From the NCBI GenBank assembly GCA_013389055.1, contig JACAEC010000146.1, positions 1 through 34,541 on the forward strand: a stretch of 34,541 bases of DNA. The letters run 5' to 3'. The stretch's first letter is position 1. The number at the start of each line of letters is the position of its first letter. The translations under genes were made by a program, and so were the position numbers. Source of the stretch: Hydrogenophilaceae bacterium. Lineage in GTDB: Bacteria; Pseudomonadota; Gammaproteobacteria; Burkholderiales; Thiobacillaceae. Positions 4,185-9,033 of the stretch are shown in pieces. The notes beneath the pieces were generated by a model. The model was given only the letters and a program-made list of their open reading frames with translations. It was not told the DNA's origin and did no database searches.

Positions 4185-7100
4185 ATGACCCAGCCCCAGT
4201 TCGCCCACCTGCGCCTGCACAGCGAGTACTCCATCCAGGACAGCTTGTTGCGCATCGGCGAGGCGGTGAAGCAGGCCAAGGCGGATGCCATGCCGGCACT
4301 GGCCCTGACCGACCTGGCCAATGTGTTCGGCATGGTCAAGTTCTATTCGGCCGCGCGCAAGGCGGGCATCAAGCCGGTCTGCGGCTGCGATGCCTGGATT
4401 GCCGGGCCCGATCAACTCGACAAGCCGCATCGGCTGTTGTTGCTGGTCCAGCACCGCGAGGGCTACCGGCGACTGTGCGAGCTGCTGACCCGGGCCTATC
4501 GGGAAAACCTGCACCGGGGCCGTGCCATCATCGATCCCCGCTGGTTCCGCGATCAGGGCACGGACGGACTGATTGCCTTGTCCGGCGCCCAATGGGGCGA
4601 TGTCGGCCAGGCCCTGCTGGCCGAGGCGCAGGACAACGCCCGCGAGCTGGCACAATCCTGGGCCAGCCTGTTTCCCGACCGCTATTACCTGGAGATCCAG
4701 CGCGACGGCCGGCCCGAGGCCGAGCCGCATCTGGTGCGGGCGGTGGAACTGGCGGCCGAGATGGGCCTGCCGGTCGTGGCCACCCATCCGGTCGAGTTCC
4801 TCAAGCGCGACGACTACAAGGCCCACGAGGCGCGGGTGTGCATCGCCGAGGGCGGCATCCTGGCCGACAAGCGCCGGCCCAAGGTGTTCACCGAGGACGA
4901 CTATTTCAAGAGCCAGGCCGAGATGGCCGGGCTGTTCGCCGACCTGCCCGAGGCCTTGGCCAATTCCCTGGAGATCGCCCGGCGCTGCAACCTGACCCTG
5001 GAGTTGGGCAAGAGCAAGCTGCCGCTGTTCCCTACCCCGGACGGCATGGGCCTGGACGACTACCTGCAGCAACGCGCGGCCGAAGGTCTGACCCAGCGGC
5101 TGGAACTGCTCTACCCGGACGCCGCCAAGCGGGCGGCGCAACTGCCCATCTATCAGGAACGGCTTGAGTTCGAGCTGGGCACCATCATCCAGATGGGCTT
5201 CCCCGGTTACTTCCTGATCGTGGCCGACTTCATCAACTGGGCCAAGAACAACGGCGTGCCGGTCGGGCCGGGCCGTGGTTCCGGCGCCGGCTCCCTGGTC
5301 GCCTACTGTTTGGGGATTACCGACCTCGACCCCTTGCGTTACGACCTGCTGTTCGAGCGCTTCCTCAACCCGGAGCGGGTGTCCATGCCCGACTTCGACG
5401 TGGACTTCTGCCAGGACGGCCGCGACCGGGTGATCGATTACGTCAAACGCAAATACGGCGCCGAGAGCGTGTCGCAGATCGCCACCTTCGGCGCCATGGC
5501 GGCCAAGGCCGTGGTGCGCGACACCGGCCGGGTGCTCAACATGTCCTACGGCTTCGTCGATTCCCTGGCCAAGCTCATTCCCATGGAGCTGGGCATCACC
5601 CTGGCCGATGCCAAGGCGAAGGAGCCGCTCATCGTCGAGAAGATGGAAGCAGAAGAGGACGTCAAGGAACTGTTCGAGCTGGCCGAGCGGCTGGAGGGCC
5701 TGAGCCGCAACGTCGGCATGCATGCCGGCGGCGTGCTGATCGCGCCGGGCAAGCTGACCGATTTCTGCCCGCTCTACCGGGCCGACGGCTCCGAGGCCAT
5801 GGTCTCCCAGTTCGACAAGGACGACGTGGAGAGCGCCGGCCTGGTCAAGTTCGACTTTCTCGGTCTGCGCACGTTGACCATCATCGATTGGGCGGTGCGC
5901 TACATCAAACGGCTGCATCCCGAGGTCGAGCTCTCCATGGAGACCCTGCCGCTGGACGACGCGGCCACCTACAAGCTGCTCAAGGCCTGCAACACCACCG
6001 CCGTGTTCCAGCTGGAATCGCGCGGCATGAAGGACCTGATCCGGCGCCTGCAGCCGGATTGCTTCGAGGACCTGATCGCCCTGGTCGCCCTGTTCCGCCC
6101 CGGCCCGCTGCAATCGGGCATGGTCGACGACTTCATCAACCGCAAGCACGGCAAGGCCAGGGTCGACTACCTGCACCCCAAGTTGGAGACGGTGCTCAAG
6201 CCGACCTACGGCGTCATCGTCTACCAGGAACAGGTGATGCAGATCGCGCAGATCCTGGCCGGCTACACCCTGGGCGCCGCCGACATGCTGCGCCGCGCCA
6301 TGGGCAAGAAGAAGCCGGAGGAGATGGCCAAGCAGCGCGAGATCTTCGTCGGCGGCGCGGTCGAGCGCGGGGTGGACAAGGAGCAGGCCACGCACCTGTT
6401 CGACCTGATGGAGAAGTTCGCCGAATACGGCTTCAACAAATCGCACTCGGCCGCCTATGCCCTGGTCTCCTATCAGACCGCCTGGCTCAAGGCGCATTAC
6501 CCCTCGGCCTTTTCGGCGGCGACCCTGTCCGCCGACATGGACGCCACCGACAAGGTGCGCAACTTCTACGAGGACGCCATCGCCAACGGCCTGGAGGTCC
6601 TGGCGCCGGACATCAACCTGTCCGACTACCGCTTCGTGCCCATCGACGCCAAGCGCATCCGCTACGGTCTGGGCGCGATCAAGGGCACCGGTGAGTCAGC
6701 CATTTCCACCATCCTCAAGGCACGGGAGGAGGGCGGCCAGTTCAGTGACCTGTTCGACTTCTGCCGCCGGGTCGATCGCCGCGTCGTCAACCGCCGGGTG
6801 ATCGAGGCCTTGGTGCGGGCCGGCGCCCTCGACGGACTGGACCCGAACCGGGCCCGCCAGTTCAACAGCGTCGGCCTGGCCATGGAGTGGGCCGACACCA
6901 TCCAGCGCAATGCCGCGCAGGACAGCTTGTTCGGTGAAGCGATCAGCGAGGCCCCGCCCAGCCTGCCGGACAGTGGCGAATGGCCGCTCAAGGAGTTGCT
7001 GGCGCAGGAAAAGGGCGCCCTCGGTTTCTATTTCAGCGGCCACCCCTTCGACGCCTACCGTCAGGATCTGGCCGGCATTGTCGACAAGGGCCTGAACCAA

Positions 7101-7637
7101 CTCACACCCCAGCAACAGCCGGTCTGGATGGCCGGCATCGTGCTGGCCGTACGCACCCAGATGACGCGGCGTGGCAAGATGGCCTTCGTGACGCTCGATG
7201 ACGGCGGCGGCCAGATCGACGTCGCGGTGTTCAACGAGAAATTCGAGGCGCGGCGCGATCTCTTGAAAGAGGATGCCTTGCTCATCGTGCAGGGCAAGGT
7301 CAGCCACGACGACTACTCGGGCGGCCTGCGGGTGACGGCGGACGAGTTGTATGACTTGGAGGGTGCGCGCAGCCGGCACGCGGATCGGCTGCGACTGTCC
7401 ATGAACGGCGAGGCCGATGCCGAGCGGCTGCGCCGCCTGTTGCAGCCCTATCGGCAGGCAGTTGGCGGGCAGGGCTGTCCCATCGCCGTGCATTACCGAA
7501 ATCGGGACGCGCAATGCGTGATCGAATTGGGCGATGAGTGGCGGGTGCGCTTGAGCAATGAACTGCTCGACGATCTTCGCAACTGGTTGCGCCCGGAAAA
7601 TGTCAGGATCAATTACCCGCGCAGCCGAGTGGGCTGA
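4185..7637 (+). CDS. dnaE: DNA polymerase III alpha subunit
   Basis: The catalytic subunit of the replicative polymerase. The 1150-residue product is close to the usual proteobacterial length. Domains in order: an N-terminal PHP domain (residues 1 to about 280) opening with HLRLHSEYS; a polymerase core with the catalytic aspartates in PDFDVDF near residue 401 and KFDFLGLRTL near residue 560; an HhH/fingers region; a clamp-binding motif QDSLFG near residue 911; and an OB-fold (VWMAGIVLAVRTQ onward, residues about 980-1060) followed by the tau-binding tail. The ATG at 4185 matches the family N-terminus MTQPQFAHLRLHS. The antisense 780-residue ORF in the track is a shadow of this gene. It stands alone between an AT-rich spacer and a non-coding spacer. 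Confidence 0.97.
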   Translation: MTQPQFAHLRLHSEYSIQDSLLRIGEAVKQAKADAMPALALTDLANVFGMVKFYSAARKAGIKPVCGCDAWIAGPDQLDKPHRLLLLVQHREGYRRLCELLTRAYRENLHRGRAIIDPRWFRDQGTDGLIALSGAQWGDVGQALLAEAQDNARELAQSWASLFPDRYYLEIQRDGRPEAEPHLVRAVELAAEMGLPVVATHPVEFLKRDDYKAHEARVCIAEGGILADKRRPKVFTEDDYFKSQAEMAGLFADLPEALANSLEIARRCNLTLELGKSKLPLFPTPDGMGLDDYLQQRAAEGLTQRLELLYPDAAKRAAQLPIYQERLEFELGTIIQMGFPGYFLIVADFINWAKNNGVPVGPGRGSGAGSLVAYCLGITDLDPLRYDLLFERFLNPERVSMPDFDVDFCQDGRDRVIDYVKRKYGAESVSQIATFGAMAAKAVVRDTGRVLNMSYGFVDSLAKLIPMELGITLADAKAKEPLIVEKMEAEEDVKELFELAERLEGLSRNVGMHAGGVLIAPGKLTDFCPLYRADGSEAMVSQFDKDDVESAGLVKFDFLGLRTLTIIDWAVRYIKRLHPEVELSMETLPLDDAATYKLLKACNTTAVFQLESRGMKDLIRRLQPDCFEDLIALVALFRPGPLQSGMVDDFINRKHGKARVDYLHPKLETVLKPTYGVIVYQEQVMQIAQILAGYTLGAADMLRRAMGKKKPEEMAKQREIFVGGAVERGVDKEQATHLFDLMEKFAEYGFNKSHSAAYALVSYQTAWLKAHYPSAFSAATLSADMDATDKVRNFYEDAIANGLEVLAPDINLSDYRFVPIDAKRIRYGLGAIKGTGESAISTILKAREEGGQFSDLFDFCRRVDRRVVNRRVIEALVRAGALDGLDPNRARQFNSVGLAMEWADTIQRNAAQDSLFGEAISEAPPSLPDSGEWPLKELLAQEKGALGFYFSGHPFDAYRQDLAGIVDKGLNQLTPQQQPVWMAGIVLAVRTQMTRRGKMAFVTLDDGGGQIDVAVFNEKFEARRDLLKEDALLIVQGKVSHDDYSGGLRVTADELYDLEGARSRHADRLRLSMNGEADAERLRRLLQPYRQAVGGQGCPIAVHYRNRDAQCVIELGDEWRVRLSNELLDDLRNWLRPENVRINYPRSRVG

Positions 7638-7797
7638 GGCCGGTACATCAATACTAAATCAGCCGTTGCGCACAAGATTTACCAATTAAATCATATTGTT
7701 GTGTTTATCTGACCTGGCTCGGCATGTGGTTTGCCCGGTATTCCCATCGCTTGGCCGCAAAATAATACTTGCGCAACGTTTCATAATATTAGAAACT
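7638..7797. other. non-coding AT-rich stretch after dnaE
   Basis: This stretch has no credible gene. The track ORF starting at 7696 is an upstream extension of the next gene, reading through a strong terminator. The stretch has several AT-rich patches (for example around 7678-7700 and 7760-7800), in contrast to the GC-rich coding DNA, and so could hold promoters. The best -10-like hexamer is CATAAT at 7782-7787, with no good -35 box at normal spacing. Confidence 0.5.
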
Positions 7798-7907
7798 TTT
7801 AATAACACTGATGCCGACGCTACTCCCTTAGCGTCATCAGTGTTGTCTCCTCCATCCTCCTCCTTTGGTGGATTTCTAAGCCCGGTCACAGACCGGGCTT
7901 TTTTTTT
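7798..7907 (+). ncRNA. probable CU-rich small RNA or structured 3' leader
   Basis: Three parts read in order. First is a long hairpin at 7804-7844: a 10-bp stem (AACACTGATG with CATCAGTGTT), a three-base bulge on one side, a 6-bp stem (ACGCTA with TAGCGT) and a CTCCCT loop. Second is a linker whose bases 7846-7866 are all pyrimidines except one A and contain CCTCCTTT, the same as the anti-Shine-Dalgarno core at the 3' end of 16S rRNA. Third is a perfect 10-bp terminator hairpin with a nine-T run. Hairpin loop and linker CU motifs plus a U-rich Rho-independent end are typical of Hfq-dependent base-pairing RNAs. The 5' end is a guess, since no promoter was resolved; the element could instead be a processed dnaE 3' end. 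Confidence 0.55.
7878..7907 (+). terminator. strong Rho-independent terminator
   Basis: AAGCCCGGTC pairs perfectly with GACCGGGCTT across an ACA loop and is followed directly by T's (nine in a row, 7899-7907). It ends transcription coming from dnaE and/or the putative small RNA, and lies 50 bases ahead of the next start codon. Confidence 0.93.
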
Positions 7908-7956: not shown

Positions 7957-9033
7957 ATGACCCATCACCGCTGGTACGTCCGCAGGAACAACAAGGTCGC
8001 CGGTCCCTTCCCCCAAGCGCAGCTCCAGGAGTATCTGTCTCGCGGCCAGCTCGTGCGCAGCGACGAAATCAGCCACGACCGCGAGGCCTGGGTCAGCATC
8101 GAACAGAGCGGCTATTTTCCGCATGAATCGAATGCACCCCAGTTGACTCCCCAGACCCATCATCGCTGGTACGTCCGCAAACACGGCAAGGTTGCCGGCC
8201 CTTTTCCGCATGCCCAAATCGATGAATATCTGGTGCTAGGGCGGCTGCTGCGAAGCGACGAGATCAGTCTTGACCGGGAAACCTGGGTGAGCATTCAGGA
8301 CAGCGGTTATTTTCCCGAAGGGCCGAGCATGGTGCAGGCCGTCGAGCCGGGCGAGGAAAATGCCTGGGAGGTCGAACGCGCCCGCGCCCGTCACCGCTGG
8401 CTGGATGAACGCTTGTATGCCACGCCCGAGGCCGAGGCGGAGCGGCGCCGGGCTGAACCGGAACCGGAGCCCTTGCAGGCCCTGCGGCATGATCATCAAG
8501 TGACCAAGGAGATGATCCTGGCGGAGCGCAGGCAAGGACCCAAGGTATGGCTGGGCCTGTTGACGATTGTGGCCATCGCCGCCGCCGCGGGCGGCATTTG
8601 GTATGGCCAGGGGGAGGGCATGGTACTGGTGAAATCGCAACTGGGGCCACCCGATTGCAACGCCAGCGGTCCCGGCGTGAATTGGACCGGCTGTGTCAAA
8701 ACGGCGGTGAACCTGCAAGGGGCGCGGCTCAGGCACAGCCATATGGATGGCAGCAAGCTGGATGAGGCGAATTTGCGTGTTGCCGATCTCAGTTTTTCCA
8801 CGCTGACCCGTGCCAGTTTGCGCGCCGCCAATCTCGAGGGGGCCGCCCTGCGGGCAGCCGATTTCACTGGCGCCGACCTGACTGGCGCCAACCTCGGGGC
8901 GACCGATCTCACGTATGCCACCTTCACCGGCGCCAAAGTCGATGGCGTTCGCCTCGAAGGGGCCCGACTCGACAAGGCGGCCTGGGTCGATGGCCGAATC
9001 TGTGCCGAAGGATCCGTCGGCGCATGTCGGTAA
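7957..9033 (+). CDS. membrane protein with two GYF_2-type domains and pentapeptide repeats
   Basis: A 358-residue protein. Residues 3-55 and 68-120 are two copies of one domain (HHRWYVR, KVAGPFP, AQ..EYL, RSDEIS.DRE.WVSI, SGYFP), which resembles the GYF_2/DUF4339 fold. A charged linker with DERLYATPEAEAERRR follows, then one membrane segment at about 196-216 (VWLGLLTIVAIAAAAGG). The C-terminal part (about 250-345) is a run of pentapeptide repeats of the A(D/N)Lxx type, closed by WVDGRICAEGSVGAC. Basic residues before the membrane segment suggest the N-terminus is cytoplasmic and the repeats periplasmic. All four cysteines lie after the membrane segment, as expected for periplasmic disulfides. 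The ATG at 7957 is chosen because the domain begins at once and the upstream frame crosses a terminator. Its function is not known to me. It overlaps the next gene by ten bases. Confidence 0.85.
   Translation: MTHHRWYVRRNNKVAGPFPQAQLQEYLSRGQLVRSDEISHDREAWVSIEQSGYFPHESNAPQLTPQTHHRWYVRKHGKVAGPFPHAQIDEYLVLGRLLRSDEISLDRETWVSIQDSGYFPEGPSMVQAVEPGEENAWEVERARARHRWLDERLYATPEAEAERRRAEPEPEPLQALRHDHQVTKEMILAERRQGPKVWLGLLTIVAIAAAAGGIWYGQGEGMVLVKSQLGPPDCNASGPGVNWTGCVKTAVNLQGARLRHSHMDGSKLDEANLRVADLSFSTLTRASLRAANLEGAALRAADFTGADLTGANLGATDLTYATFTGAKVDGVRLEGARLDKAAWVDGRICAEGSVGACR
7963..8121 (+). repeat. first copy of duplicated GYF_2-type domain
   Basis: A 53-codon unit (HHRWYVR to SGYFP) repeated at 8158-8316 with identical length and clear similarity in both DNA and protein. 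This indicates an internal gene duplication. The two copies are joined by a 12-residue linker. Confidence 0.85.
8158..8316 (+). repeat. second copy of duplicated GYF_2-type domain
   Basis: Partner of the unit at 7963-8121. The conserved core KVAGPFP and RSDEIS is shared; differences are mostly third-position or conservative, so the duplication is not brand new. Confidence 0.85.

Follow-up and report, generated by a model that had tools for sequence, protein, structure and literature searches.

The window, a 34,541-nt stretch of DNA from a Hydrogenophilaceae bacterium, carries one copy of a compact structured RNA element between dnaE and a gene whose product, from our own reading of its sequence, we take to be GYF-domain-like (Table 1). 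The parts described for this region in the initial annotation, namely a long bulged hairpin with a CTCCCT loop, a pyrimidine stretch and a terminator with nine T's, are all present, and the fold goes beyond chance, the 110-nt region giving a folding z of -9.85 with 0 of 200 shuffled sequences as stable. The pyrimidine stretch, which extends from 7844 to 7866 and holds both CTCCTCC and CCTCCTTT, had been read as a linker; the stretch is real, but it is not single-stranded throughout, since the 3′ part of it is folded into a second hairpin, in which CCA (7852-7854) pairs with UGG (7869-7871), together with CC and GG, and the second CU motif is placed in the loop. The modelled RNA folds into three stem-loops, the linker and the second loop each bearing an anti-Shine-Dalgarno motif, and its precursor, beginning at the predicted start A7805, is predicted to be ~103 nt long.

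Table 1. Features of the sRNA locus and its neighbours in the window. R1 is a covariance model built on the core of this RNA, NmsR not included.
Feature	Position	Strand	Basis and remarks
dnaE, upstream neighbour, outside the sRNA	4185..7637	+	ORF; tblastn synteny in relatives; name from the initial annotation and the conserved ORF
Predicted sigma-70 promoter	7769..7797	+	-35 TTGCGC 7769-7774, 17-nt spacer, -10 GAAACT 7792-7797; within the conserved TATTAGANAATNCT block
Stem-loop 1	7805..7843	+	Predicted fold; bulged; starts at the predicted +1 (A7805); loop CUCCCU 7823-7828
Linker UGUCUCCUCC, putative anti-SD site 1	7844..7853	+	Invariant or nearly so among relatives; S17 site 1 by analogy (PMC11722255)
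RF02278 match	7844..7906	+	Model positions 1-64 of 64, 64.0 bits
Stem-loop 2 with putative anti-SD site 2 (UCCUCCUCCUUU, 7855-7866)	7852..7871	+	Rfam and R1 consensus pairs; near-invariant sequence
Intrinsic terminator	stem 7878-7900, T-run 7899-7907 (nine T's)	+	Stem pairs covary across relatives
GYF-domain-like gene (presumed), downstream neighbour, outside the sRNA	7957..9033	+	ORF

The RNA matches the full model of RF02278, catalogued as 'Betaproteobacteria toxic small RNA', well above the cut-off (50 bits; E = 7.6e-11 over 34.5 kb), and it has the layout of that family, in which the linker and the loop of the first hairpin each hold a CU-rich site that complements ribosome-binding sites, and a terminator follows. 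The matches to NmsRb (RF02877; 31.2 bits, cut-off 52) and to anti-hemB (31.7 bits, cut-off 49.5) stay below threshold. By model score and layout, the window RNA is a member of RF02278, a family already catalogued, and the feature is in this way largely explained. Published members include ncS03, ncS05, ncS27 and ncS62 of Burkholderia (PMC4603805, PMC5688073) and four RNAs of Herbaspirillum (PMC7011215), and S17 of Bordetella bears a close likeness to members of the family (PMC11722255). The Burkholderia RNAs have in common with the window RNA the two CU-rich sites and the double hairpin with terminator; the window RNA differs from the RF02278 model in its additional conserved stem-loop 1, ncS27 also having a longer form, and from the Burkholderia RNAs in its position by dnaE and in its copy number, which is one in most same-family genomes against three to five in Burkholderia.

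RF02278 is present in 49 of the 61 genomes compared, a set made up of the window's own assembly and 60 relatives; among the 36 same-family relatives, 34 have it, and in most family genomes dnaE lies upstream. Among named records, those that contain the exact core of 29 nt mostly belong to Thiobacillus, Thiobacillaceae and Hydrogenophilus, which points to an origin of the window in or near Thiobacillaceae. From GTCTCC to GGATTT the core is invariant or nearly so in 37 family sequences, and the CU core of ~31 nt is nearly invariant among Thiobacillaceae-like relatives, whereas the terminator stem is variable, its changes being compensatory. In 34 sequences, other orders included, changes on both sides are seen at 7 of the 8 terminator pairs and 94% of the cells are paired, a percentage biased upward by the choice of these sequences with models of the same structure, the double changes themselves being real. 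In stem-loop 1, the lower stem has 168 of 176 cells paired; the highest count in 2000 partner shuffles, which ignore relatedness, was 155. Only 11 of 30 sequences retain the CUCC motif in the loop of this hairpin; the 5′ loop CUCCC is, on this comparison, clade-specific, which speaks against the part in the mechanism formerly given to it. The initial annotation had named retention of the terminator with loss of the CU motifs as the pattern adverse to its reading; the linker displays the reverse, and the first loop partly fits that adverse pattern. The near-invariance of the ~31-nt core raises the question of which constraint freezes the sequence, whether many targets, Hfq or ribosome contact.

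Directly before stem-loop 1, nearly all family members carry TTGNNN, 17 nt and GANAAT within the block TATTAGANAATNCTNATA, and a strict pattern of this block is found in 19 of 37 genomes, each with a single match, which lies at the sRNA. The -10 of the window, GAAACT, is weaker than that of most relatives and was left unflagged by a simple consensus scan. This weakness, and the same-strand position of the sRNA behind dnaE in most family genomes, would suit an RNA without a promoter of its own, one that is simply the terminator and 3′ untranslated region of the dnaE transcript or is released as an sRNA from the dnaE mRNA. Nevertheless, the conserved promoter block stands between dnaE and the RNA, the dnaE match ending ~120-360 nt before the core in most family genomes (tblastn), and the RNA is kept without dnaE in several genomes. 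In two of these (L058 and L062) an opposite-strand gene, EF-G-like in our own reading of its translation, takes the upstream place with the GYF-like gene still downstream; in a third (L029) the sRNA lies instead by a gene that we likewise take to be rplI-like; and homologues in other orders lie by rplM. Since the sRNA is retained where dnaE is absent and a conserved promoter block lies upstream, it is not simply the terminator of dnaE, and derivation from the dnaE transcript is very unlikely. The earlier proposal of a base-pairing sRNA with anti-Shine-Dalgarno motifs, separate from dnaE, is supported.

Many family members have a strongly conserved dyad, TATTAG-N6-CTAATA, that covers the -10; in the window (7787-7804) it is degenerate. 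Its interpretation as a repressor operator was considered and rejected: matching genomes have a single copy of the block, found nowhere but at the sRNA, and other orders do not retain the second half of the dyad; for these reasons the dyad is treated as promoter plus discriminator. At the other side of the locus, the GYF-like gene downstream of the sRNA gives two overlapping tblastn matches in two same-genus genomes (L015, L016), as if duplicated or extended.

A second copy of the sRNA in the assembly (contig C112, L002) follows a different dnaE, 61% identical, on which ground it was rejected as a paralogue and is probably contamination. The assembly is mixed, with 5.64% contamination, and the contigs C112, with the second dnaE end and the sRNA copy, and C87 and C128, with the two hfq genes, hint at the same (G000); hfq is present in the assembly, although one of its two genes may be foreign. 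A mobile origin was considered as well and rejected: no copies were found by blastn in plasmids, phages or E. coli, a weak result, as the low-complexity filter may hide CU-rich cores.

Among studied RNAs, S17 of Bordetella pertussis, with its forms S17L and S17S, shares with the window RNA a conserved 27-nt region, sites 1 and 2 and a terminator, and has a long precursor and its own sigma-A promoter with a 17-bp spacer (PMC11722255), equal to the spacer of the predicted window promoter. The differences concern the length of the precursor, S17L being 190 nt long against the ~103 nt predicted here, the neighbouring gene, which is coq7 for S17 and dnaE for the window RNA, and the Bvg control of S17, which is not expected for the window RNA. 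The kinship with the Neisseria sibling RNAs that had been suggested is borne out by the same three-stem-loop arrangement in NmsRA/NmsRB (RcoF, NgncR_162/163; RF02877), where the linker carries anti-SD1 and the loop of stem-loop 2 carries anti-SD2 (PMC5362039). The NmsR siblings are encoded in tandem, between dsbB and lrp, whereas the window RNA is one copy and not tandem; it resembles NmsR in layout and presumably in working, yet is not filed under RF02877.

These likenesses, together with the family membership, predicted structure and covariation, conservation, promoter block and hfq presence computed here, make it very probable that the window RNA is an sRNA of the RF02278, S17 or NmsR type, one that acts in trans, probably depends on Hfq, has its own sigma-70 promoter and lowers translation by pairing with ribosome-binding sites. 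The RNA would be transcribed from that promoter up to the intrinsic terminator and would expose two CU-rich anti-Shine-Dalgarno sites, in the linker and in the loop of stem-loop 2, through which, aided by Hfq, it would pair with a subset of mRNAs at their ribosome-binding sites and reduce their translation. RNase E probably removes stem-loop 1, a cut near the start of the linker being one that would yield the short form, and the stable, processed RNA is likely to be ~64 nt long, after the example of S17. Transcription, Hfq binding, processing, repression by pairing, and metabolic and transport targets are carried over from the studied relatives, because the sites and layout are as in S17 and NmsRA and hfq is present in the assembly. 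In these relatives, S17S is an Hfq-binding RNA generated by RNase E cleavage, and the deletion of S17 raised ~92 genes, 70 of the 92 with complement at or near the ribosome-binding site, one target having been shown directly by reporter (PMC11722255); mutation of either anti-SD site of NmsRA lifts the repression of nearly all tested targets (PMC5362039), and the gonococcal NmsR siblings control central metabolism (PMC9973317).

The range of possible targets was surveyed in a 357-kb sample of DNA with 302 genes, for which starts were called crudely and several per gene. GGAGG or AGGAG occurs at an early start in 30 of the 302 genes, and a contiguous complement of at least 8 nt near an early start in 9, against 18 of 3020 random windows, an enrichment that is modest and inflated by the multiple starts. 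These counts, and the limited response to S17 deletion (PMC11722255), indicate that the initial annotation overstated the case in proposing a global repressor of many GGAGG sites. A related explanation places the action at the ribosome itself, where the RNA would either imitate the 16S tail as a decoy, titrating mRNAs or initiation factors across all genes, or halt growth as a toxin. The identity of CCTCCTTT to the 16S tail would favour it, as would the slower growth on overexpression of family members (PMC4603805, PMC5688073), although toxicity to E. coli from a cloning vector, a trait linked with RF02278, is not universal, S17S being not toxic in exponential growth (PMC11722255); against this, the identity amounts to just 8 nt, partly paired within a hairpin, deletions affect a limited gene set, and long complement is found in few genes of the 357-kb sample. 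The identity was measured against GGATCACCTCCTTTCT of a same-genus genome, as no 16S gene is found in the window's own assembly. A general effect through the ribosome is therefore highly improbable, and the suggestion of a ribosome mimic is unsupported, the studied relatives acting on restricted sets of mRNAs.

Beyond the family, RF02278 gives matches at E up to 1e-3 in 83 of 274 genomes of a class-wide sample, only 3 of them above the cut-off. The sub-cut-off relatives share CTCCTCCATCCTCCTTTGGTGG or close variants and a terminator, and the weaker matches are, judging from these shared features, more than mere noise. The class concerned we take to be Gammaproteobacteria in the GTDB sense, from kinship labels, named core records and general taxonomy. 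R1 matched 124 of 370 class genomes, mostly once, some of these matching by construction, and gave 12 matches in 199 phylum-sampled genomes, all within the class, which also dominates that sample. As regards CcsR/CuckooS of Rhodobacter, R1 has no matches outside the class in the phylum sample, and no such family, should Rfam include one, appears among the Rfam matches of the window at E up to 1; these RNAs presumably share CU-rich pairing motifs with the window RNA, which makes them a lead only.

The loci in other orders have a recurrent setting, with rplM within ~400 nt downstream in 16 of the first 18, often with coq7 or osmC upstream; among 18 further loci outside the model building, counted by eye from a table, 9 have rplM there and one has osmC/crp. 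The sRNA also lies between osmC and rplM in three same-order genomes (L021, L022 and L028). Many other-order loci carry the TATTAGA block with TTGACA, although this block is absent from both search models. In many genomes the RNA precedes rplM by ~140-420 nt, which might suggest a role in cis, as leader or attenuator of the gene that follows, but that gene varies by clade (GYF-like, rplM and others) while the core stays constant, and the strong terminator is always kept, which renders such a role extremely improbable. We consider it rather probable that RF02278, NmsR and the sub-cut-off gammaproteobacterial RNAs form one ancient, mostly single-copy family, found in about one third of the sampled class genomes and often with the promoter block, whose old home was likely between osmC/coq7 and rplM-rpsI and which moved to dnaE in Thiobacillaceae. 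Bordetella S17 likewise lies beside coq7 (PMC11722255), and R1 matched a same-order genome (L159, 1003-1294) with tandem NmsR (RF02877, 106.7 and 77.5 bits).

The window element alone is only one more member of a known family, and the novel part is the wider range; the conserved predicted promoter and the dnaE locus are new points for the element itself, and the gammaproteobacterial distribution and the link to NmsR might be new to a specialist. The literature searched, with most subscription papers outside it, held no report of gammaproteobacterial orthologues by rplM or coq7; an Aeromonas paper lists a 'tsRNA' (PMC8780938). If the wider family is real, many gammaproteobacterial lineages possess an anti-Shine-Dalgarno regulator that has escaped notice, and the RNA could then be studied in them. 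The comparison suggests a common origin of S17, ncS27 and NmsR despite their different names, and that 'toxic' and 'Betaproteobacteria' describe the family too narrowly.

Some further observations concern the individual loci. The sub-cut-off RF02278-like RNAs of the series L068-L087 and L089-L117 often lie between osmC/coq7 and rplM-rpsI-tRNA-Gln, and at one locus the Crp/Vfr protein is nearest to Vfr. One fold (L113) and one alignment row (L112) drew on an incorrect stretch or strand and are left out of account. In two genomes of other families (L160:614-1162 and L161:480-904), core and terminator are repeated in tandem, with three to four copies, similar in this to the NmsR siblings.
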